Made by a program: the position numbers and the translations under genes. Below are positions 27,350-42,822 of a stretch of DNA of 64,000 bases, piece after piece. The stretch is taken from positions 1 to 64,000 of the forward strand of contig JAJRXK010000058.1 of NCBI GenBank assembly GCA_024276305.1, written 5' to 3'. The DNA comes from Candidatus Krumholzibacteriota bacterium. GTDB taxonomy: Bacteria; Krumholzibacteriota; Krumholzibacteriia; JAJRXK01. Under the pieces are notes generated by a model. It did no database searches. It saw only the letters and a program-made list of their open reading frames with translations, and was not told where the DNA came from. Each line of letters begins with the position of its first letter. The first letter of the stretch is position 1.

Positions 27350-27379
27350 AGGTCCCAGCCTAAAGGTTGGGACCTTTTC
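27350..27379 (+). terminator. Rho-independent terminator after the amidohydrolase
   Basis: AGGTCCCAGCC pairs with GGTTGGGACCT (one G-T pair) around a TAAA loop, followed by TTTTCT. It begins 54 bases after the stop codon at 27296 and separates this gene from the hybrid kinase. Confidence 0.88.
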
Positions 27380-27441
27380 TCCCGATACAGACTTCGATCG
27401 AGATTCCGCGAATCCTGCATCCAAGAAAAGGCTCCGAAGCT

Positions 27442-30400
27442 GTGTCCACTCGCCACCTGCGCTATTCCCTACTCTGCCTGTTCTTCATTGGAGCTGCGGC
27501 TCGGGCCACGAGTGCCGGGGTACGGGCTTCACACCTGAACTTCGAGCGCCTCGATCTCCGCGACGGGCTCTCTCAGAACACTGTGAACGCCCTGCTCCAA
27601 GACCATGAGGGCTTCCTGTGGATCGGCACCCAAAACGGTCTCAACCGATACGATGGCTATCGGTTCTCCACTTTCTTCCACGAGAAGAAGAGCGACACCA
27701 GCCTGAGCAACAGCTACGTCCTCGCTCTGATGGAAGACCGGCTCGAGCAGATGTGGGTGGCCACCAACGACGGGCTGAACATTTTCGATCGTGACCACAG
27801 CACTTTCGCGTCGATTCTGGTCGACTTCGAGAACCCCGAGGCTCTACGCAATGGCCGGGTTCGGGCCCTGGCCGAAGACATCGACGGATTCCTCTGGGTG
27901 GGTACCGAAGGAGGGGGCCTTCACCGTATCGACCTCCAAACTCGCCGTGTGGAGCGAATCCTTCCAAAGACTCCCGCAACGGAATCGGGGAGCTTGGGAG
28001 AATCGTCGGTCATCTTGTCGCTGATGATCGATCGCGACGGTCAGCTGTGGATCGGATCGAGAGCCGGACTCTTCCGGATGGACACTCATCGCTACCAAGC
28101 GCAGAAGATCGACCTCGAGGCTGCGAACTTCGATCCGAGTTCGGAAGAGATCGACGCACTCCATCAGGATTCGCGGGGCCGAATCTGGGTCGGAACCCTC
28201 GGCAGTGGGCTCTTCTGCGTCAGCCCCGAAGGCAAGGTCATGGAGCATCTGCGCCATGACATCAACGACCCCACCACTCTCAGCGGCGACTTCGTGCGGG
28301 CAGTCTACGAGGACTCGAGCCGAACCCTCTGGGTCGGCACACGATCGGGCCTCAACATTCGCACGGACGGCGAAGAGGTCTTCCAGCACGCCAAACGAGC
28401 CTACCAAATCGGAGGATTGCCGGACAATCACATCACTCGGCTGTATCAGGACCGGAGCGGAGTGCTGTGGTTGGGAACCGCCACCGCCGGACTCGCCAAG
28501 CACGTGCAGGAGGACCATCGCTTTCCGTGCATTCGATTCCAGTCCGATGATCCCACACGGTCCGGCACCAATGTCATCCGGGCGGTCTTTCAGGACAGCG
28601 ACGCCCTCCTCTGGATCGGCACCGAGGGTGACGGATTGCTCTGCTACGACCGACGTACCGGTCGTGTAGAGCAGTTCTCTCATGATGCGACCAACCCACA
28701 GTCTCTCGTGGGACCTACAGTTCGAGCCATCGCACAGGATGCCAGCGGTCACCTGTGGCTGGGAGCCGATGGAGAAGGCCTGACGATCTTCGATCCCAAG
28801 GCACGGACCTTCGAGCGCATGCCGCCTCGTCCCGCCTCTCCCGACGCCCTCCCCACAGGGGTGGTGCGAACACTCTTGCCCGACGACCAAGGCGGGATGT
28901 GGGTCGGACTCTTCGGAGGTGGCCTCCACTACTACGATCCCGAGAAGAAGATCTTCACCCGGCACTACCGCGAAGACGACTTCACCAATGGGGCAGGGAT
29001 CAGCGACTACGTGTACACGCTGACCAGGGCCCGAGACGGGAAGATCTGGGTGGGGGGAGTGAATCTCTGCGTCTTCGATCCTTCTTCCGAACGCTGGTTC
29101 CACTACCCCAAAGGGTCCGACACCAAGTACGAGATCGACAGCAACTTCATTCTCCAGATCACCGAGGCCAGCGACGGCTATTTCTGGATCTCGACCACCA
29201 ACGGCCTCTTCCGCCTCGACCCCAAGAATCAGACCTTCCTCCACTTTACCGAGGATGACGGCCTTCCTGACAACATGATCTATGCCGCCCTCGAAACCCA
29301 GGACGGCAATCTGTGGCTCTCGACGAACCGAGGTCTGGCGGAGTTCGACCCCGGCACCGGCGCCGTACGTCACTACGATTCCAGCCACGGGCTCCAGAGT
29401 TCGGAATTCAATGGCGGATCCTACTTCCAGAGTGCCGATGGAGAGCTCTTCTTTGGGGGAATCGACGGTCTGAACGCCTTCTACCCCGAGCGCATCGGAC
29501 GAAGCGAAGCCGCACCCCAAGTTGCATTCACCGATCTTCAGCTCTTCAACGAATCCGTTGTCGTCGGACAGGAGTATTCGGGACGGGTTCTTCTCGACCG
29601 ATCGATTACCGAGACGCGAGCAATCGAGATCTCTTACGACCAAAGTGTCATTGCGTTCGAATTCGCCGGCTTGCACTTCGTCAGTCCTGAAAAGAATATC
29701 TATGCCTACCGCCTGAAGGGATTCGAGCAGTCCTGGAACGAGGTCGGAAACCGGCGCTTCGCCAGCTACACCAGCTTGCCTCCTGGGCGCTACGAATTCC
29801 AAGTACGAGCGGCCAACAACGACGGGGTGTGGAATCCCACTCCGGCCACCATCGCATTGCGGGTCCTTCCCCCGTTCTGGATGACCACCTGGTTCCGGGG
29901 GCTGGCCATCCTGGCCTTCGTGTCCTTGGTCTGGCTCGTCCTCTACGTCCGCACCCGAGCCATCGCGATGCGGAACCATGAACTCGAAGAGCGCGTGCGA
30001 GAACGGACCAGCAAGCTCGAGAACGAGATCCAACAGAGGCAGCAAGCGCAGCTCGAGCTCGAAGAGGCAAGAGATGCCGCGGAGGCCGCGAGTCGCGCCA
30101 AGGGACAGTTCTTGGCCAACATGAGCCATGAGATCCGGACTCCCATGAACGGCATCCTGGGCATGACGCAGCTCCTACTGGACACCGACCTCAGCGAAGA
30201 ACAGATGGACTATGCGCAGACCGTCTACGAAAGCACCCAGGTGCTCCTGTCGGTGATCAACGACATTCTGGACTTTTCCAAGATCGAGTCGGGCCGTTTG
30301 GACATCGAAACCATCGGCTTCGACCTGCACCGGAGCGTCGATGGCGTGCGCGACCTCCTCTCATGGAAGGCCGAGGAGAAGGGCCTGCAGTTCCGGTGCA

Positions 30401-31260
30401 GAGTGGATGACAGGATTCCGGATGTTCTCATGGGAGACCCTCTGCGAATCCGTCAGGTTCTGCTCAATCTCCTTGGAAATGCCATCAAGTTCACCGAACA
30501 AGGATCCGTCTCCTTGGATGTGCGATTGGTGGCGCGTCACGATCGTGTCGCCCGGCTCGCCTTTTCGGTCCGCGACACCGGCATCGGTATCCCCGAAAGA
30601 AAACTGGAGTCGCTCTTCGACTCCTTCTCTCAGGTGGATGAATCCACCACTCGTCGCTTCGGCGGCACCGGGCTGGGATTGGCCATTTCCAAGCAACTCG
30701 TGGAAATGATGGGAGGCACTCTCGTCGTCCACAGCTGTGAGGGACAGGGTTCCGAATTCCGGGCCGAGATCGATTTCGGGATCGGTCACACCAGTGATCT
30801 GGAAAGCGTCTGTCTCGATCCGGCCCCGGTGAACTCACCCTCCCCGACCTGCGCTCCGGGAACCATAGTATTGCTCGCCGAAGACAATCCGGTGAACCAG
30901 AAGCTGGCCCAGCGCATCCTCGAACGAGCCAACTATGAAGTCGTCGTCGCCAACAACGGGCAGGAAGCTCTCGATGCCCTCGACCAGAGTCCCCCCTTCG
31001 ATGTCGTGCTCATGGACGTACAGATGCCGGTGATGGATGGCTTCGAGGCCACTCAAGCCATCCGAGGCGGAGAAATCGAAGGGATCGACACCGCAATCCC
31101 CATCATCGCTCTCACTGCGCACGCGATGCGGGGAGACCGTCAGAAATGTCTCATCGCCGGTATGGATGACTACGTGACCAAGCCGATTCACCGCGAAATC
31201 CTGATCGAGACCATCGAACGTCACATCGAAGCCTCGCGAGTTTCGGTCACGGATGTCTGA
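27442..31260 (+). CDS. hybrid histidine kinase with ligand-sensing propellers and receiver domain
   Basis: About 1272 aa, starting at GTG 27442; an earlier TTG (27367) lies inside the terminator and is rejected. A signal or anchor segment is followed by two seven-bladed propellers made of Reg_prop repeats (WIGTxxGLNRYD type), a Y_Y_Y domain (about 725-800) and one transmembrane helix (about 815-835). The cytoplasmic part has a coiled coil, HisKA ([15 protein letters not shown], His near 890), HATPase ([17 protein letters not shown]) and a C-terminal receiver ([11 protein letters not shown], phospho-Asp, Lys in VTKPI). No DNA-binding domain is fused, unlike Bacteroides HTCS proteins. The ligand is unknown. 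The next gene is convergent. Confidence 0.95.
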
Positions 31261-31277: not shown

Positions 31278-32066
31278 TCAATCCTCGTCCAGGCGCAGGG
31301 GGGACAAAGGGGCGTCGAGATCCAGCAGGTCGAGCGTTCTCCACACGACTCGCGACTGTTGGTCACGATCTCCAACGCGGCCCAGCGTCGCACCCCGCCC
31401 GAGCCGGGTGAAGGTTGCTCGTGGCGGGTTCAAGGACCGGGTTCGTCCCGGATGCCACGAGCTCAGAGTGGTAGCGATCCCTGCACACTCCAGCCCTCTC
31501 GCGATCAGCCCCACGGACTGACAACACAGAGGTCACGAGGGAACCAAGAATGCAGCATCGGCCCCCGCACCCTTGGCGGCGGCAATCAGCTCCGGAAGAG
31601 TTTCATCCGCGACGCACCCCAAGTCCGGCTGATAGCCCATGAAACTCAGCCAGATCTCCGCCACCGAGCCGATACGACCCTCTTCGACGCCCTCTTGGAG
31701 GAGCTCGAGGGGAAGGAGCACCCCAGGATCCTCCCGGACTGCGCTCTGGTCATAGTGGTCGTGGGCGAAATCGAGGCCGGCAAGCCCGTCTTCCCATCGG
31801 TGCTCCCGCACTTCGTAGTCCCCCAGCGGATCCGAAGCCCGAAACGCAGCGTGCCGCGAGGGATCATAGGCTCCGGAAGACGAGATCAGGAGTAGACGAC
31901 TCGTGCGAAGATCGACTCCCGCCCCGTTCAACGGCGGCAGCGTGGGGGTCTTCGGATAGAGACTCCAATCGATCTCGCCGCTCCGGTCGAAATGCGCACG
32001 CCAGCCCTCGCGCAGCTCGGATTCCCATGACGGTCGCGCGGGGAAGAATTCTTCGGGAAAGTCCAT
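31278..32066 (-). CDS. GrdB/PrdB-family selenoprotein, UGA-encoded selenocysteine (Sec178)
   Basis: Read through one in-frame UGA (31533-31535), the gene encodes 262 aa. Before the UGA the protein runs to ADAAFLVPS and after it to PLCCQSVGLIARGLECAGI and SLNPPRATF. This matches the glycine/sarcosine/betaine/D-proline reductase selenoprotein B family, whose active site is Sec-x-x-C in this very position (here U-P-L-C). Both halves are in one frame, and a SECIS-like hairpin follows the UGA. ATG 32066 has GAGGAA upstream and lies 15 bases after the outer-membrane barrel gene, so it ends the cytochrome operon. The family reduces C-N or related bonds; the substrate of short, stand-alone members is unknown. 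Confidence 0.85.
31505..31521 (-). promoter_or_regulatory. bacterial SECIS-like hairpin
   Basis: On the minus strand, 11 nt after the UGA, TCAGTCC pairs with GGGCTGA (7 bp, one U-G pair) around a GUG loop. A short stem at this distance with G at the start of the apical loop fits the known bacterial SECIS pattern: E. coli fdhF also places its upper stem 11 nt after UGA. SelB would bind it to deliver Sec-tRNA. Confidence 0.7.
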
Positions 32067-32081
32067 CGGGTTCCTCGGGAT

Positions 32082-33638
32082 TCAGAGTCGGAGAGTGGCC
32101 GAAAACCAGTGCTCCTGGTAGGCCTCGTTTCCTTCGAAACTGCGCTCGAAATCATAACCCACGCTCCAACGCGAGCCGATTTCTGCCTCCGCGCCCCATC
32201 CGAACCAGGGGTCGGTGAAATCGCTGAGGTCGTTGTCCTTGCCGTTCTCGTGGCGGAGCCCCGCGAAGAGTTCCAGGGTGAATCCTCGGTCATTGCCCCA
32301 CCCCAAACGACCGGATTGCAACCATCCATCGACTAGGTCATTGCGATAGGCCGTGCTGCGCGAAACCACCCACCAACGGCCTTTCCAGTCCTCGCTGCCT
32401 CGCAGATCCAGGGTCAGCGCATCTGCCCCATCCTGACTCGCTCCGCGCCGGCTTCGCAGCATCACGCCCCAGCTATACGAGGAGTTCAACCGATGCCGCA
32501 AGCCGGCCCACAGGCCTTGCCGATAACGATCGTCGAATCGAGTCTCCGGAGTCTCCAGATCCCGATAGCGCCGAATGGGACGGCGGTTGTCATAGCCTCC
32601 GAAGACCACTACCGCATCGTCCAGCCTCGAGCGCAATAGTAGATGGCTTCGAGTCAATGAAAAAGTCTTTCCCTCGAGAGCATGCTTCCAAACACGGTTC
32701 ACATCCACATCCTGGGTCGCCACCAGGGTGAATCGCCGAGAGGAATACCGTGACCTCAAGTGCACGAACTCGCGATCGAAGTGTCCGGAGTCATAGGATC
32801 CCGCATAGCCCATTCCCAGGCGCCACTTGTTTCCATGTGTCGTCGTGTGATGATGAAAGAGCATGAATCCGGCGCGAAGGCTCGTGGCCCGGAAACCCAG
32901 GTTCAACCCATCCGGCTGGGTTCCTCCGAGTGCCTGGAGTTCCCAAGATCCCCTACGCCAACCCATCTGGGCACCATCGACGAGTCCGAAGGCTCCGACG
33001 TCGGTGGAGTACTGTCGCCCGAAACTCCACCGCACTCCATGGGACTCGGTCGAGAGAGTGAATTTGTAAATGCGATTGCGCTGCAGTGTCGGTTGACCCT
33101 TCGCGGAATAGATGCTCCGGCGAGTCCGAATATCGATGTCCGCATCCCAACGATTCGCCAACACCTGGCGCCCCTTCAGCCTCAATCGGGCCGCGGGCTG
33201 CCAGAGATCCCGTCCGAGTCCGCTCTCGTCACGGAGGTAGAGGAGATCGACCGCCACTCTTCCGTGCAGACCGGAGCGGCGGCCTCGAGAAGAGGGATCG
33301 AGGCCATGGGCTCCGCTTTCGGACGGGGATCGATTCAACGCGCCGAGGGGGACCACAGAATCCCCCATCACCGGACGATCCACTCCCTCTACGAGGCTAC
33401 AGGCCGCCCGTCGAGAAGAGAGCTCACGCACCTCGAGCTGGGCCACGACTTCGCCATCTCGTCGCAACTCGAGTCGCTGTCCCACTCTCAATCCGGCATT
33501 CGCCCCCAGGTCGATGTAGACCGTGCGCGCGGTGACGTAGGTCACGCGGGCCGTCGCCGGCTCCGCCACTCCCGTTCCGGGCCATCCGAGACCCACCAAG
33601 ACCACGAGGCACCAGAGTCCGGCCTGCCACGCCCGCAT
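32082..33638 (-). CDS. outer-membrane beta-barrel of the cytochrome operon
   Basis: Protein of 518 aa with signal peptide (LWCLVVLVGLGWPGTGVA). Residues about 27-85 form a small beta domain (VYIDLGANAGLRVGQRLEL...), similar to the SH3-like folds often attached to envelope proteins. The remaining 400 residues alternate polar and aromatic residues in many short strands and end in HWFSATLRL, as expected for a large barrel. It starts inside the stop of the 12-haem cytochrome gene (TGATG overlap). By position it is the best candidate for the porin sheath of a porin-cytochrome conduit. No sequence family was recognised. Confidence 0.8.
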   Translation of the reverse strand: MRAWQAGLWCLVVLVGLGWPGTGVAEPATARVTYVTARTVYIDLGANAGLRVGQRLELRRDGEVVAQLEVRELSSRRAACSLVEGVDRPVMGDSVVPLGALNRSPSESGAHGLDPSSRGRRSGLHGRVAVDLLYLRDESGLGRDLWQPAARLRLKGRQVLANRWDADIDIRTRRSIYSAKGQPTLQRNRIYKFTLSTESHGVRWSFGRQYSTDVGAFGLVDGAQMGWRRGSWELQALGGTQPDGLNLGFRATSLRAGFMLFHHHTTTHGNKWRLGMGYAGSYDSGHFDREFVHLRSRYSSRRFTLVATQDVDVNRVWKHALEGKTFSLTRSHLLLRSRLDDAVVVFGGYDNRRPIRRYRDLETPETRFDDRYRQGLWAGLRHRLNSSYSWGVMLRSRRGASQDGADALTLDLRGSEDWKGRWWVVSRSTAYRNDLVDGWLQSGRLGWGNDRGFTLELFAGLRHENGKDNDLSDFTDPWFGWGAEAEIGSRWSVGYDFERSFEGNEAYQEHWFSATLRL

Positions 33639-34630
33639 CAACTCTTCCCCCGCGGATGACAGTCGAAACAGGCGAAACTGTCGTAGCTGTAGCCACTGAC
33701 CTCGCGGTGATCTCCATCGGTCTTGGAACGATCGCTGTGCGGATGGCAACCGACACATTCGAAATCTCCGAAGTCACTCGAGTTCACGTGACAGTCGCTG
33801 CAGACATCCCATTTTCCACGGTGGGCTCCCGAATTGATGGGGAAGTAGTCTCGGTGGGAGCACTCTGCGTCTTCCCACCGTCGGGTGTTGTGACAGAGCT
33901 GACACTCGGTCGAGAACCCGAGATCCGCGTGCCGGGGATTGGAGGTCGCATCGTAAGCGCTCTGATGACACTCCGCGCACACCAGCGATGCACCTCCTAG
34001 CTGGCGTTCGTGATTGAAGAATCCTCCCACGAAGGTCCGGGTGCTGTGGCAGAACTCGCAATCCTGGGAGAAGGCATTGGCGACGTGATCGGGATCCTTC
34101 GCCCCCGAGTATTCCGCCTCATGGCAGGCAACGCAGGCGCTGTCGACGCCCAGGAATTCCAGGATTCCCTCCATGCCCACCGGATGACAGGACTCACAGG
34201 GGGCCGTCGCATGAGCCCCCGAAAGTGGAAAGCGCTCTTCGCGATGGAGCCGGCGCTGATCCACCACGTCGATGAAGCTCCTGGATCCGTGACACCGATC
34301 GCAATCGAGTCCCAATTGGCCCTGATGAACATCCATATGACAGTCCGAGCACTCCGAACCGGTGAACGAGAAGCGCAGATCCTGGTGACAGTCCATGCAG
34401 TCGAGGCGTGCATGTGCGCCCGAAAGGCTGAAGCCGAATCGGCGATGATCGAATTCCGCACCGATTCGAAGGGGGCTCCAGGCCGAAGAGCTGTGGCACC
34501 TCTCGCAGGCCAGTCCCAGATCGCTGTGTGGACTCTCGAAACCGACTTCGGCCACCGCGACGAGATGGATTCCCATCACCATCCCGGCGACCATCAGCCC
34601 TCCGAGAAACCGAACTCCACCCGTTGTCAT
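33638..34630 (-). CDS. 12-haem c-type cytochrome
   Basis: Secreted or periplasmic cytochrome of 330 aa. After a signal peptide (LMVAGMVMGIHLVAVA) I count twelve CxxCH haem sites: CERCH, CMDCH, CSDCH, CDRCH, CESCH, CVACH, CEFCH, CAECH, CQLCH, CSDCH, CVGCH and CFDCH. Additional His residues in GAHARLDC- and HREERFPLSGAH-type segments can serve as distal ligands. One haem per 27 residues is typical of electron wires such as MtrA-like proteins. The ATG overlaps the stop of the 20-haem gene (ATGA), so the two are made together. Confidence 0.95.
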   Translation of the reverse strand: MTTGGVRFLGGLMVAGMVMGIHLVAVAEVGFESPHSDLGLACERCHSSSAWSPLRIGAEFDHRRFGFSLSGAHARLDCMDCHQDLRFSFTGSECSDCHMDVHQGQLGLDCDRCHGSRSFIDVVDQRRLHREERFPLSGAHATAPCESCHPVGMEGILEFLGVDSACVACHEAEYSGAKDPDHVANAFSQDCEFCHSTRTFVGGFFNHERQLGGASLVCAECHQSAYDATSNPRHADLGFSTECQLCHNTRRWEDAECSHRDYFPINSGAHRGKWDVCSDCHVNSSDFGDFECVGCHPHSDRSKTDGDHREVSGYSYDSFACFDCHPRGKS

Positions 34631-36402
34631 CGGGGGACTCCCTTCGTATGACAGTCCTCACAGGCCTTGGGCACGCCAGAGAAGTCCCGCCGAACCTCGG
34701 CCGCTGCGCCGCGAATGAGCGTCGAAGCCAATGGCGCTCGGGTCAACGACGGGTGACAGAGAAAACAAGGAGTGGCCCGGTGCGCACCCTCCAGCGAGAA
34801 GGCAAAGCCCTGATGGAGATTCACGTCCACGAGAGAGGGACGAAACCGCTCGGTGCCATGGCAGTCCTCGCAACGATGGCGGAGCCCGTGGGGGGCAGAA
34901 TTCGAGTACCTGCCCCCATGAACGTCGACATGACACTCCGCACACTCCGTCTCGATCCCGCGAAAGACGAGACCAGTCGTGCCCGCAGTGGACGCGTCGA
35001 CCGAATCGAGGCCGGGACGGTCCAGTGCGTGGCAGGACTCGCACTTCACCCGTTGGTGGGCCCCCGCAAGCGGGAACGTCGCACTTGCGTGCGCGTCGAT
35101 CCCGAAGGTCGAGGGTCGAAAGCCATCCACGACATGGCATCGGTCGCAGTTGCCCCCCCCCGAAGAGAACTGTCCTCCGTGGGCATCCCGATGGCAGGAC
35201 GCGCAAGCGTCGAAGACCGGGCGCATCTTCACTCCCGCTTCCCCCCATTGCTGACGATCCGCATCGTGCGGATGGCACTTCGCGCATTCGACATCGCGGT
35301 GCTTGCCCTCGAGGGGATAGCGAGTCGCCGCATGGGCGACGAGGTCGAAGGTCGAGGGCCGGAACCCCCGGAGTCCGTGGCAGGCCTCACAGTCCTTGGA
35401 ATCATTTCCGAGGGTCGCGGTCCCCTGGTGAGGATCTCCGTGGCAGGATCCGCATCTCTCGAAGGATGGCTTCTTTCCCCACCCTCCCAGCGCGGGATCG
35501 TGGCACTGTCCGCACTTCACTCGACGATGCGCACCCTGCAAGGGATAGCGGGTGCGTGCGTGATCGAAATTCGATCGAGAGACCACCTCGAATCCGTCGA
35601 CGACATGGCAATTCTCGCAGGCCGCTCCGAAGCGACCTTGGTGCACGTCCCGATGGCAAGAGCCACACTCGGTGGTCGCAAGTCCCTGTAGAACCCATTC
35701 GGCCTTCTCCCGCCGGCTCGATGCGAAGCGTCCGTTCTCATGGCACTTGGCGCACTCGACCTGGGCGTGGCGACCCTCCAGCGCGTAGCCCGTCTTCCGA
35801 TGATCGAAGTCCTCGACTCCGTGCCACCGACTCGACCCGTGACAGTCGGCGCACACCGTTCCCAAGCGTCCACCGTGCGGATCCGCGTGACAAGACGTGC
35901 AGGCCGAGTCGAGACCCACCCAACTTCGGGCCAAATCCTGGACCTGCATGCGCAGGGTGATGCTTCGCGATTGACGGTCGGCTCGATGACAGCTCCGGCA
36001 CTCCTCTCTCGCGTGGGCTCCGGAGAGGGGCCAACCCGTTCGGCCGTGGTCGAAACTCTGGCTGGGATCCGATTCCCAGGCGATCAGCTCGAATCGACGA
36101 CCCGCGTGCTCCGGATGGCATCGGGCACAGTCCTTTTTCCCCTCGCGAGCGTGCAGACCCCGCCCCTTTTCCAAGAGAAAGGCGATGCCCTCGTGGCACG
36201 CGAGACAACGGTCGTCGACCGATGCCTTGCCTCCGGCGTGACACCGCGTGCAATTGCGAACTCCTTCGAAGTCCGCGTGAGCACTGGAGAGCTCCCCGGG
36301 TGAGATCTGTGCTCTCGCGCCCCCAGGCAAGCAGAGCACCAGGATCACGACCCCCAGCCCGAAAGCCACCGGTCCTTCGAAGATCCGACGCAACTCATGC
36401 AT
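34627..36402 (-). CDS. 20-haem c-type cytochrome with repeated modules
   Basis: Protein of 591 aa with a signal peptide (VVILVLCLPGGARA). I count twenty CxxCH sites spread from CTRCH near residue 51 to CEDCH near 583. The segment FDHxxTxYPLxGxHxxVxCxxCH recurs at least six times, so the protein grew by duplication of a module of roughly 80-100 residues. The His residues in these modules are probable distal haem ligands. Its size would span a long distance as a wire through the periplasm. It overlaps the iron-sulphur flavoprotein gene by 8 bases and the 12-haem gene by 4. Confidence 0.95.
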   Translation of the reverse strand: MHELRRIFEGPVAFGLGVVILVLCLPGGARAQISPGELSSAHADFEGVRNCTRCHAGGKASVDDRCLACHEGIAFLLEKGRGLHAREGKKDCARCHPEHAGRRFELIAWESDPSQSFDHGRTGWPLSGAHAREECRSCHRADRQSRSITLRMQVQDLARSWVGLDSACTSCHADPHGGRLGTVCADCHGSSRWHGVEDFDHRKTGYALEGRHAQVECAKCHENGRFASSRREKAEWVLQGLATTECGSCHRDVHQGRFGAACENCHVVDGFEVVSRSNFDHARTRYPLQGAHRRVKCGQCHDPALGGWGKKPSFERCGSCHGDPHQGTATLGNDSKDCEACHGLRGFRPSTFDLVAHAATRYPLEGKHRDVECAKCHPHDADRQQWGEAGVKMRPVFDACASCHRDAHGGQFSSGGGNCDRCHVVDGFRPSTFGIDAHASATFPLAGAHQRVKCESCHALDRPGLDSVDASTAGTTGLVFRGIETECAECHVDVHGGRYSNSAPHGLRHRCEDCHGTERFRPSLVDVNLHQGFAFSLEGAHRATPCFLCHPSLTRAPLASTLIRGAAAEVRRDFSGVPKACEDCHTKGVPR

Positions 36403-37798
36403 CGACTTGTGACTCCACGAGGGGAATGTCTTTCTTCACGATCTGCACCCCGATGCGCTCGAGGAAGGGATAGGGTGCTTCGCCCCCGATGCGCACGATG
36501 AGATCGTCGTTGGGGAGCGTGTGCACCCCCCCGCCATCTTCGATGTCGATCTCACCGCTTCGAATTGCCCGCACCTGACTTTCTCTCCACACGCGCAAGG
36601 CACCTCGAGACTCGGCCTCGTCGAGCTTGGCCACATTGCGCTCCTTCGCCCGATCGAAGCTTGCCTTGCGATAGGAGAGAATCACTTCGGTCCCCTCTTG
36701 TTCGGCCAATCCCAAAGCCGACTCCAATGCGCTGTCCCCACCCCCTACGACCACCACCCGTCGTCCGGCGAAGGCCTCCATCTCGACGATGTCATAGAAT
36801 ACCGAGGCGCAGTCTTCACCCTCGATCCCCAATCTCCGAGGACTCCCGCGCCTTCCCATGGCCAAAATGACCCTGGCTGCCCGAAGGTCACCCTGTGAGC
36901 TGCGCAGGAGGAAGCTGCCCACTCTGCCCTCCACCGCGATCACCCGATGTTGGGTCTTCACCTCGACCCCGGTCACCTCCACGATGGTCTCCCAGGCTGC
37001 GAGCAGGGATTCCTTCGAAGTGTCGGCGATCCAGAGATCCCCGTAGAGTGGGATGTGGACCGGCTCGGCCAAAAGTAGTTTGTGGCGGGGGTACTTGCGG
37101 ATCGTGTCCGCCAGAGAGCCTTGCTCGAGCACCACATAATCCACTCCGAGTCTCTTGCATTCGAGTGCCGCGCTCAGACCGGCGGGGCCCGATCCCACGA
37201 TCGCGACCTGATAGAGGTGCGGCTGCGCCGAGGTGGAATCGGGCTCGAACTCTTCGGCCGCGACACTGCGCGCCGCCACGCAACCTTCGTTGATTGCATT
37301 CTTGATGAGTCCCCTCCCGCCCAGCTCTCCCACCACGTAGATCCCCGCCACATCCGACTGAAAATCGGCTCCGACGCGGGGCACCTCCACCCGTTGGGCA
37401 TTCCCCGCTCCGACGACGATCGCGGAAACGGGGCAGGCCTCCGCGCAGTGGCCATGCCCCACGCACTTGGTCAGATCCACCATCGCCAACTTCCCCTCCA
37501 TGCGGAGAGCGCCCTCTTCGGGGCAGGCCGGGACACAGACCCCACAGCCCACACAGAGATCGGAGCGGACCACCGCATGAGACTCGACCCCGGAATCGAG
37601 ATCCGACAACGCTTCCTCCGCGCCCACGACTTCGAAGATCTGAAGGGGAATCCCACACTTGGTGCAACGGTTGGGTCGATCGTCCAACTTGGCTCCGCAG
37701 GCCGGACAGGTCGGCACCACCACGCCCCGGCTGCGCTCCCGCAGGTGGCGCGACGCGAACCATGCGGTCAGGAGAAGGAATCCGATCGTCCACCACAT
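36395..37798 (-). CDS. membrane-anchored iron-sulphur FAD/NAD(P) oxidoreductase
   Basis: Protein of 467 aa. An N-terminal helix (WWTIGFLLLTAWFA) is followed by a zinc ribbon (CPACG ... CTKCG) and a ferredoxin domain. The first cluster motif is complete (CVGCGVCVPACP). The second reads CVGHGHCAEACP, with His in place of the second Cys. The C-terminal 330 residues are a thioredoxin-reductase-like two-nucleotide fold: VGSGPAGLSAAL for FAD and VVVGGGDSALESA for NAD(P)H. It probably passes electrons between NAD(P)H and the membrane cytochrome or haem wires encoded beside it. Direction cannot be told from sequence. Confidence 0.92.
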   Translation of the reverse strand: MWWTIGFLLLTAWFASRHLRERSRGVVVPTCPACGAKLDDRPNRCTKCGIPLQIFEVVGAEEALSDLDSGVESHAVVRSDLCVGCGVCVPACPEEGALRMEGKLAMVDLTKCVGHGHCAEACPVSAIVVGAGNAQRVEVPRVGADFQSDVAGIYVVGELGGRGLIKNAINEGCVAARSVAAEEFEPDSTSAQPHLYQVAIVGSGPAGLSAALECKRLGVDYVVLEQGSLADTIRKYPRHKLLLAEPVHIPLYGDLWIADTSKESLLAAWETIVEVTGVEVKTQHRVIAVEGRVGSFLLRSSQGDLRAARVILAMGRRGSPRRLGIEGEDCASVFYDIVEMEAFAGRRVVVVGGGDSALESALGLAEQEGTEVILSYRKASFDRAKERNVAKLDEAESRGALRVWRESQVRAIRSGEIDIEDGGGVHTLPNDDLIVRIGGEAPYPFLERIGVQIVKKDIPLVESQVDA

Positions 37799-37810
37799 CT
37801 CGATGCGCCC

Positions 37811-38707
37811 TCAATAGAACCAAGTGGAGCCTACGACGACCACCACGATCACGTGGATCAACACCGCCAACAATGCGGTCATGGCCACCGGTTTGTGGAA
37901 GACATGCCAGTAACGGAAGATGGTCTGAGTACGATGGAGCAGCCGCGCCTGTTGAGACAAGGCCATCTGCTGCCGGGCCAGTACGACCACTCGATCGAGG
38001 GCGGACTCGTCGAAGTCTGCTCCCTCCGCGATCAAGCGGCGGCAACGGCCTCGGAGTCGACGCACCGCGCGTCGTCGTTCGAAGTCGTCGCGGGCCATCT
38101 GCAGGAGTCCGCCCAAGATGCTCAGCGAGGCCTTGGGAGGGTCGGCGGCCAGCTCGCTCTCGACCAGAGCCTGTTGCAGTCCAGTGATGCCGGCCAATTC
38201 CACGAGGAGCTGGCGGCGCTTCTGGGCCAAGTCCTCGGCGCTGAGCTCGAGACCGTTCCACCCTCTGGGAATGTGGACATAGACGTAGCGACCGATGACT
38301 CCACTCAGTGCCACGATGAACATCGCCCACCACCCCAGACCGATGACTCCATCGAAACGCCACGCCGAATGAACTGCTCCGAAGTAGCAGATGGTCAGAC
38401 CGACCACGATGTGCACGTCGAGCCACTTGGGGAGGGGTCCGAAGCCCTTGCGAGCGCCGATCTTCTTGCGCAGGGGGTAGAGCCAGAGAAAGAGCAGACC
38501 GGCCAGAGTCACGATGCCTGCGCTCTGTCCCACCCATCCGGAGGGTCGCAGCCAGTCGTGCATCTCGTGACGCACCCGCACTTCCGTCGGCGCGAAGTAG
38601 TAGGAAGATCCCCAAACGCTGAGGGCGGTGAGCAGAACTACCGGCGCCCACACCCAGGGGGACACCGATCCCACCGCTCTCTTACCACCGCTTTGGTCAT
38701 CTGCCAT
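37811..38707 (-). CDS. inner-membrane cytochrome b-like protein
   Basis: Protein of 298 aa starting at ATG 38707; a longer reading would begin inside the divergent promoter region. Four helices lie within about 20-145, then a soluble, Arg-rich alpha-helical stretch of about 110 residues, then a last helix (VAMTALLAVLIHVIVVVVV). His residues in LDVHIVV, GAVHSAW, YWHVFHKP and LIHVI are placed for one or two b-haems, as in cytochrome b561/ferric-reductase-like proteins. It is the first gene of the operon and 12 bases before the flavoprotein, consistent with a quinone- or flavoprotein-linked entry point. Confidence 0.8.
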   Translation of the reverse strand: MADDQSGGKRAVGSVSPWVWAPVVLLTALSVWGSSYYFAPTEVRVRHEMHDWLRPSGWVGQSAGIVTLAGLLFLWLYPLRKKIGARKGFGPLPKWLDVHIVVGLTICYFGAVHSAWRFDGVIGLGWWAMFIVALSGVIGRYVYVHIPRGWNGLELSAEDLAQKRRQLLVELAGITGLQQALVESELAADPPKASLSILGGLLQMARDDFERRRAVRRLRGRCRRLIAEGADFDESALDRVVVLARQQMALSQQARLLHRTQTIFRYWHVFHKPVAMTALLAVLIHVIVVVVVGSTWFY

Positions 38708-39009
38708 TTCGAACCAAGGGCCAGGGAGAAGGACCAGGTCCGGCGGGGAACCTTGGGCCACCAAAACGAACGGCCGCCCACCGGCCGCGTCCGAGAGCCA
38801 TCGCACTGCATGGCTCGTGCCCGACACTAGTGCATCCACACCATTGTTGGGATGGGCGAATATGGTCCCTCTATTGACCACTGTCGCGAACTGGCAGGGA
38901 TCGGGGCTGGCGCTAGATTTCGGGGGGACGGGGCGCGAACTTGGCCCTATCATGGCAGCTCGTCCCTGAAGCCCCCAACCCCGTTCACGACCTCTCGCGG
39001 AGGAATCCG
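38708..39009. other. intergenic region between divergent operons
   Basis: About 300 bases separate the cytochrome operon (minus) from the outer-membrane protein gene (plus). It should hold both promoters. TTGACC occurs near 38875 but no well-spaced -10 partner is clear. No hairpin or repeat stands out. Confidence 0.4.
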
Positions 39010-41047: not shown

Positions 41048-41995
41048 ATGGGTTCTACCACACTCCTCCCGCGCTTCGTGGCCTGCCTCTTGGTTCTTGG
41101 ATCCACGATTCCATTTTCCGCAAACGCACACGCAAAAACGATCAAGGTCGTCGCCACCACCACGGACATCGCCTATCTCTTCGAGGCGATCGGAAATTCC
41201 CAGGTCGAAGTTCGAACTCTGGCCAAGGGCTATCAGGATCCCCACTACCTTGAGGCCAAACCGAGCTATATCGCACGCATGCGCGACGCGGATCTTCTGG
41301 GCTACGTGGGTCTCGAGCTCGAGGTCGGGTGGCTACCGCTTCTCGTCGAAGGCGCGAGGAATTCCCGGCTCGGAGCCGGTGGGCAAGGAAATGTGCCGCT
41401 GTCCGTGGGAATCGAGATTCGAGATGTCCCGGCCGGCGAAGTCGATCGATCCAAGGGAGACCTCCATCCACTGGGCAATCCGCACTACTGGCTCGACCCC
41501 CGCAACCAGATCATCATGGCGGAAACCATCGCGACCGCCCTGGCCCTGACCGATCCTGACCACAGGGAAGACTACTCGGCCAACCTCGCGGAATTCCGCA
41601 CTCGCCTTCGATCTGCGATCGACCGATGGGAAGAGGAGATGGCTCCCTTCCGCGGTCGCAAGATCGTTTGCTACCACACTCAATGGGAATACCTCACGGA
41701 TTGGATGGGGCTGGAAATCGTGGATTACGTCGAGAACCGGCCCGGAATTCCCCCCTCTCCACGTCATCTCCACGAGCTGAAACAGCGGATCGTCGGTGAG
41801 CACATCCCCTTGATCCTGATGTCGAACTTCTTCGAAACCGGTTCCGTCGAAAAGATCGCGAAATCCACGGGCGCCATTCTGGTCGTCGCGCCGGCTTCGA
41901 TCAAGGGCGAAGACTCCATCACCGACCCGGTGAAGCTCTTCGACCACCTCGTCGAATCCATCACCGCGGCCCTGTCCGATGGAGACACACCATGA
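41048..41995 (+). CDS. zinc/manganese ABC transporter substrate-binding protein
   Basis: Periplasmic cluster A-I binding protein of 315 aa with a signal peptide. It starts with KVVATTTDIAYLFEAIG, typical of ZnuA/TroA/PsaA. Probable metal ligands are His in KGYQDPHYLEAKPS, His in NPHYWLDP and His in VCYHTQWEYL. There is no His-rich loop as in high-affinity ZnuA. Metal preference (zinc, manganese or iron) cannot be decided. The stop overlaps the permease start (ATGA). Confidence 0.92.
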   Translation: MGSTTLLPRFVACLLVLGSTIPFSANAHAKTIKVVATTTDIAYLFEAIGNSQVEVRTLAKGYQDPHYLEAKPSYIARMRDADLLGYVGLELEVGWLPLLVEGARNSRLGAGGQGNVPLSVGIEIRDVPAGEVDRSKGDLHPLGNPHYWLDPRNQIIMAETIATALALTDPDHREDYSANLAEFRTRLRSAIDRWEEEMAPFRGRKIVCYHTQWEYLTDWMGLEIVDYVENRPGIPPSPRHLHELKQRIVGEHIPLILMSNFFETGSVEKIAKSTGAILVVAPASIKGEDSITDPVKLFDHLVESITAALSDGDTP

Positions 41996-42822
41996 CCGAG
42001 ATCATGAGCATCATGTGGTTGCCATTCCTCGCATGCCTGGTCCTGGTGACGATTCACTCCTATTTGGGCATTCATGTTCTGGCTCGGGGAGTGATCTTCG
42101 TAGACCTGGCTCTGGCTCAGATTGCCGCCCTGGGAAGCACGATCGCCGTACTCCTCGGCTACGAGCTTCACAGTCGTCCAGCCTACGCCCTCTCCCTGCT
42201 GTTCACGCTCATCGGTGCGGCAACCTTCGCGTTTTCCCGAGTGAAAATGCGCGGAGTGCCTCAGGAAGCCTTCATCGGCGTCAGCTATGCGGTCGCGAGC
42301 AGCGCTGCAATCCTGGCTCTGAACTCTGCGCCGCACGGCGCCGAACAGATCAAGACAATCCTCGTGGGGTCCATTCTGTGGGTCACTCCACAGGAAGTTG
42401 CGAAGACCGCAGTCATCTATTCACTCGTCGGCCTCTTCCACTGGATCTACCGTCGGCAATTCCTGCGAATGAGCTTCGACACCGACTCCGCGGAAAGGTC
42501 AGGAATGAAAGTTCGGTGGTGGGATTTCCTCTTCTACGCATCCTTCGGGTTCGTGGTCACGAGCTCCGTGAAGGTCGCGGGCATCTTGCTCGTGTTCAGT
42601 TTTCTCATCGTACCCGGCATCATGGGAACACTCTTCGCCACTACGATCCGCAATCGTCTATTGGTAGGATGGAGTACCGGGTGGATCGTATCGATGTTGG
42701 GTTGTCTCGTGTCCTATGAAGCCGACCTTCCAACCGGCGCCACCGTAGTATGTACCTTCGGTGTCGCCCTATTCGTCGCGGTGATGATTCGCAGATGCCG
42801 AGCTCAGAGCCCGGCCCGATGA
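41992..42822 (+). CDS. zinc/manganese ABC transporter permease
   Basis: ZnuB-family permease of 276 aa with about eight membrane helices. Typical parts are [28 protein letters not shown] near the N-terminus and [23 protein letters not shown] near residue 200. The start codon overlaps the binding-protein stop. No ATPase gene follows; instead the 3-prime end overlaps the convergent histidine kinase by 54 bases. An ATPase encoded elsewhere must serve it. Confidence 0.92.

Follow-up and report, generated by a model that had tools for sequence, protein, structure and literature searches.

Genes at the locus

On the minus strand of the window (the whole stretch of DNA analysed, 64,000 nt), positions 31278–32066 hold a single reading frame interrupted by a UGA codon. 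The frame opens with an ATG at 32066, with GAGGA ahead of the start codon, and runs for 177 codons to the UGA at 31533–31535. Read through, it continues for 84 more codons and terminates at a second UGA (31278–31280). Read conventionally, it appears as a 177-aa frame (32066–31533) and a 78-aa frame (31514–31278), which share the same minus-strand frame and have the UGA as their sole separator. The GTG with which the 78-aa frame would start (31514–31512) sits within the loop of a hairpin. The read-through product is a PrdB/GrdB-like protein of 262 aa, in which the UGA corresponds to residue 178 and lies in the motif VPS-U-P-L-C-C-Q (UxxC). The assignment of 31278–32066 as one coding region draws on the read-through frame, tblastn, an 87-row tree, similarity to Pfam GRDB and NCBIfam PrdB, and a single predicted fold. 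A first-pass annotation of the DNA had proposed a single minus-strand frame from 32066 to 31278 split by a UGA, and this is correct to the base. A standard gene caller would cut the protein off at its active site.

The gene is the last of a compact minus-strand run (31278–38953) that resembles an electron-transfer module. The run is headed by a probable membrane protein (38953–37811), followed by a 4Fe-4S/FAD pyridine-nucleotide oxidoreductase (36395–37798), which is YpdA/thioredoxin-reductase-like and has a hydrophobic N-terminal stretch (Pfam Pyr_redox_3; NCBIfam YpdA, 135/340 bits). Next come two multihaem c-type cytochromes with 32 CxxCH motifs between them, specifically 20 in the first (34627–36402; Pfam Cytochrome_C7 and Cytochrom_c3_2) and 12 in the second (33638–34630; Pfam Cytochrome_C7). 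The gene directly upstream of the split frame (32082–33638) is an ORF with no family match; it encodes 518 aa with a signal-like N-terminus, possibly an outer-membrane barrel, and ends 15 nt before the ATG at 32066. A scan for promoters and terminators found nothing.

On the plus strand, a convergent gene (27367–31260) encodes a 1297-aa hybrid two-component sensor with a Reg_prop propeller, a HisKA domain and a receiver, and ends 17 nt from the split frame. Farther away, a gene for a ZnuA-type metal-binding protein is followed by an ABC-permease-like putative gene (41048–42822, plus strand), probably a metal uptake locus.

Decoding of the UGA

The genome that contains the window is a draft of 3.5 Mb in 119 contigs, 97.9% complete. 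A genome-wide look for selA, selB, selC and selD, the absence of which would have counted against selenocysteine (Sec), found all four. Specifically, the genome encodes a tRNA-Sec with the anticodon TCA (72.1 bits, above the Rfam cut-off), SelB (350 bits), SelA (448 bits) and SelD (328 bits). The selD gene lies on the same contig (G000:C42, L019:1480–2535), about 3.5 kb past the window end, and has an in-frame UGA of its own in the context AAAAG-U-AAK; judged from this sequence, SelD is very likely a second selenoprotein.

For the split frame, a search of the genome contig collection retrieved one relative, from an Anaerolineae MAG (47% identity), with UGA at the matching codon. Within the phylum of the host, matches were found in three of 80 genomes, namely the host genome itself, a genome of the same genus and a genome with one Cys protein. 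In the same-genus genome (G008), the sole homologue is a diverged UGA protein (34%) and a close orthologue is missing, and the relatives with 46–53% identity belong to another phylum; horizontal transfer of the gene is possible. In that other phylum, 98 of 400 genomes carry a PrdB-like gene, and three genomes (G249, G468 and G385) have four to six family paralogues each, mostly with UGA. Seven longer homologues (L050, L063, L068, L070, L087, L095 and L113) have an extra C-terminal region of roughly at least 100 aa where aligned.

The codon at the Sec column, read in the fetched loci, is UGA in 70 rows of the 87-row tree and Cys (TGC or TGT) in the other 17. The three closest full-length relatives (46–53% identity) all have UGA at the aligned codon. 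The window protein falls in a clade of four (SH-aLRT 99), all with UGA, which is separate from the PrdB of Terrisporobacter. The tree requires seven changes between Sec and Cys, of which three are forced by well-supported branches; it is a quick tree with long branches, and its deep order is unsure.

The first-pass annotation had held that an ordinary stop in homologues, or lost conservation past the UGA, would speak against Sec. In the homologues compared, the UGA is in place and the downstream part is the better conserved one: the 84 residues after the UGA are 67, 60 and 58% identical to the three closest relatives, versus 48, 43 and 40% for the upstream part. The piece after the UGA, used alone as a query, retrieves the close relatives with E values of 1e-27 to 1e-30. 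Against the same three relatives, pN/pS is 0.38–0.53, at synonymous sites that are near saturation. The UxxC motif is near-invariant across homologues, with Sec or Cys conserved at 178 and Cys181 nearly invariant. Two variants of the motif were seen. One UGA homologue (L072, G161:C167) has Asp in place of the resolving Cys (U-P-R-D). Another (L071, G382:C266) carries a second in-frame UGA three codons from the first (U-P-I-U), so that its resolving Cys would also be Sec, giving UxxU.

The usual bacterial SECIS has a short stem and a small loop containing a G, and lies about 16–37 nt after the UGA. At the locus, a 7-bp stem with a GUG apical loop (31505–31521, minus strand; UCAGUCC-GUG-GGGCUGA, read from 31521 to 31505) starts 11 nt after the UGA, with the loop starting at 18 nt; the position, stem length and loop given for it in the first-pass annotation were confirmed. 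The minimum-energy single-strand fold extends this stem (31495–31532, minus strand) down to the base adjoining the UGA, with a free energy of −20.9 kcal/mol; 3 of 200 shuffles folded as well (z = −2.67). By itself, such a free-energy comparison says little about a SECIS in a GC-rich coding region, and a 7-bp hairpin is not rare by chance in a single sequence, being reached by 13% of synonymous-codon shuffles. An Rfam search at the hairpin site gave no matching family.

The hairpin is regarded as more than chance because of its covariation across homologues, not because of its length in one sequence. The covariation test covered the inner 8 bp of the stem. Among 31 distinct hairpin sequences from UGA homologues, 84.7% of pair cells are formed, versus 65.6% after shuffling; a group with the motif U-P-D-C-C and one further homologue (L109), whose best hairpins lie elsewhere, were left out before counting, which raises these percentages. 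Changes on both sides of the stem number 42, versus 13.1 in shuffled data, and the covariation score is 0.494, versus 0.154 (0 of 500 shuffles as high). Sliding the pairing partner by one to three columns, as a control on the same hairpins, lowers the score to 0.14 or less. Stems in other UGA homologues include GCAAUCC/GGAUUGC, CCACACC/GGUGUGG and GCGUACC/GGUACGC. The Cys homologues (n = 15) show 55.8% pairing and no excess of covariation. With the U-P-D-C-C group included, a stem of at least 6 bp occurs near the expected place in 87% of 67 distinct UGA sequences, versus 13% of the Cys sequences. In the U-P-D-C-C group itself (L027, L039, L045 and relatives), the best hairpin is CGUGCC-CGUGCU-GGCACG, 5 nt further downstream, and the SECIS thus appears to have shifted its position within the family.

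With the selA, selB, selC and selD genes present, the UGA kept in homologues, conservation continuing past it and the hairpin covarying, the selenocysteine reading of the first-pass annotation holds, and we consider it nearly certain on comparative sequence evidence that UGA 31533–31535 is decoded as selenocysteine and that the gene encodes a selenoprotein. The other way to read the codon is as an ordinary stop, with a 177-aa product and a remnant behind it, left by a pseudogene or a sequencing error. This is what a gene caller would report, and UGA is a normal stop in this genome, where it ends both the selenoprotein gene and the gene upstream. However, a remnant is hard to reconcile with a UGA that is in place in about 70 homologues, with a downstream part conserved more highly than the part before it, with a covarying hairpin beside complete Sec machinery, and with a predicted fold that uses both halves; this reading is highly improbable. 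Insertion of some other amino acid, through an alternative code or a suppressor, is less probable still. An open frame under a changed code does not itself name the residue, but the homologues have Cys at the site, not Trp or Gly, tRNA-Sec and SelB are present, and UGA serves as the stop of the selenoprotein gene and of its neighbour.

Family identity, fold and partners

The selenoprotein is homologous to PrdB and GrdB and has Sec in UxxC, which places it in the PrdB-like UxxC selenoprotein family. The NCBIfam PrdB profile TIGR04483 matches it with 73.1 bits (E = 2e-20), below the cut-off of 300; the GrdB-type NCBIfam models reach 18–30 bits, and Pfam GRDB reaches 23–24 bits, just above its cut-off of 22. 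The GrdB motif UxxCxxC is not matched, as the selenoprotein reads U-P-L-C-C-Q-S. The first-pass annotation had recognized here the Sec site of the selenoprotein B of glycine/sarcosine/betaine/D-proline reductase. The PrdB/GrdB likeness in this claim stands, with the correction that the closest characterized relative is PrdB, not GrdB (73 versus at most 30 bits).

D-proline reductase has a pyruvoyl subunit, PrdA (PMC10298544). PrdA was searched for directly, with a positive control, in place of the profile TIGR04482, which represents PrdD and had no match anywhere. No PrdA was found in the host genome or in four others (G008, G326, G423 and G198), and the control, a Terrisporobacter plasmid, was matched twice. 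Likewise, no GrdA was found in the host genome, G326, G080 or G423, and the control, a Peptoclostridium record, gave 263 bits. In the phylum of the relatives, PrdA-like matches occur in only two of the 400 genomes and are partial (27 and 19 bits). The case for the absence of PrdA and GrdA from the host genome is strong, not absolute, in a draft of this completeness and contig number.

An AlphaFold2 model built on 30 homologues shows a single alpha/beta domain (pLDDT 90.7, pTM 0.90). The predicted fold has core elements both before and after the UGA. Sec follows a strand (171–175) and is located at the start of a helix (179–194). A PDB search by sequence gave no meaningful relative, only designed or unrelated proteins, and a search by fold gave no meaningful match either (best E = 0.009, with RMSD above 15 Å). 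Therefore, structure gives no function for the selenoprotein. The protein is probably cytoplasmic, because a signal peptide is not apparent by eye.

Two functional settings compete with a stand-alone enzyme. If the protein were a genuine PrdB subunit of D-proline reductase, or a B-type subunit of glycine reductase, it would act in amino-acid fermentation; its best NCBIfam match is indeed PrdB, its UxxC is placed as in the Terrisporobacter PrdB, where the codon is likewise UGA, and its Pfam GRDB score just passes the cut-off. Yet the PrdB score is about a quarter of the cut-off, PrdA and GrdA are missing where the controls are positive, the clade is different from that of PrdB, and 98 of 400 genomes with a PrdB-like gene stand against two with a weak, partial PrdA match. 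Because of this score, the missing PrdA and GrdA, and the near-absence of PrdA among the 400 genomes, the selenoprotein is, on sequence grounds, very unlikely to be a subunit of D-proline reductase, and a true reductase subunit of either kind seems quite improbable. Alternatively, the selenoprotein may be a dedicated part of the multihaem-cytochrome/flavoprotein module, through which a selenol reaction in the cytoplasm would be coupled to electron transfer in the periplasm or outside the cell. The shared strand, the overlapping upstream genes, the 15-nt spacing to the ATG and the two cytochromes with their 32 motifs suggest as much, as does the YpdA-like flavoprotein inside the run. Of the four clade members, two have a YpdA-like flavoprotein nearby; in G326 the YpdA-like gene lies about 1.9 kb from the relative. 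However, gene order in a single genome is weak support, no conserved neighbourhood or shared operon was seen among the close relatives, the nearest relatives are without such a cytochrome cluster, and a look around six wider family members and in the G423 region found no YpdA-like gene. A functional link to the cytochrome/YpdA-like run is thus only a lead, because the close relatives are without the run and the YpdA-like gene is missing near wider relatives, and a dedicated part in the module is unlikely. We know of no description of a selenium-dependent redox function wired to a 32-haem electron-transfer module.

Proposed mechanism and relation to known systems

In the mechanism that we propose, the ribosome would insert Sec at UGA 31533–31535, with SelB and tRNA-Sec delivering it and the downstream hairpin directing the insertion. 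The product would be a 262-aa protein of the PrdB/GrdB family with Sec at a helix N-terminus and Cys181 of the UxxC as the second redox residue, and the selenoprotein subfamily would work without PrdA or GrdA. The Sec selenolate may act as nucleophile on an oxidized or electrophilic substrate, Cys181 may serve as the resolving thiol, with a selenenyl-sulfide as intermediate, and a thiol system or a flavin reductase may carry out re-reduction. The YpdA-like flavoprotein (36395–37798), linked to the selenoprotein gene, is a candidate electron donor. Argued from the motif and the absence of partners, a stand-alone selenol/thiol oxidoreductase mechanism is moderately favoured over that of a D-proline or glycine reductase. 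Taken as a whole, Sec insertion together with a stand-alone UxxC redox enzyme that works without PrdA or GrdA is, with good confidence, the best explanation of the locus.

In sea-water metagenomes, the PrdB-like family, which takes its name from D-proline reductase, ranks among the commonest selenoproteins. Of the 400 genomes, 98 have a PrdB-like gene and almost none has PrdA, which suggests that this name misleads. A much broader proposal, in which the four-member clade, along with most 'PrdB' selenoproteins from the environment, would consist of orphan selenoenzymes with a function unrelated to D-proline reductase, here wired to the 32-haem electron-transfer module, is unlikely.

Compared with D-proline reductase PrdB (TIGR04483), the selenoprotein is homologous over residues 53–248, and the PrdB of the Terrisporobacter plasmid has UGA at the matching codon, in the same UxxC position. 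It differs from PrdB in its identity of about 30%, its score of 73/300 bits, the undetected PrdA, another SECIS stem and a separate branch. With GrdB (PF07355) it has in common the Sec-bearing C-terminal region, with weak Pfam and NCBIfam matches; unlike GrdB, it has 262 aa, versus about 430 for the NCBIfam profiles, reads U-P-L-C-C instead of UxxCxxC, and occurs in a genome where GrdA was not found. A protein of Haematobacter (WP_035710215.1, 'glycine/sarcosine/betaine reductase selenoprotein B family protein') belongs to the same family and has CxxC at the matching position; proteins of this type have Cys for Sec, and the Cys set is without a conserved SECIS hairpin.

The closest description is that of the marine 'proline reductase PrdB' UxxC family (PMC1088965, PMC2398784), represented by 42 selenoprotein genes in the Sargasso Sea data (PMC1088965) and 235 sequences in the GOS data (PMC2398784). 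D-proline reductase with UxxC is also listed in reviews from 2022 (PMC9312934) and 2026 (PMC13188914). By description, the marine family resembles the window protein in being Pfam07355-type with Sec in UxxC, in having a bacterial SECIS directly downstream and in the existence of Cys homologues. Unlike that family, the window protein belongs to a distinct four-member clade and to a genome without detectable PrdA. Reports of PrdB-like selenoproteins with UxxC in sea-water metagenomes go back to 2005, and the window protein adds one member.
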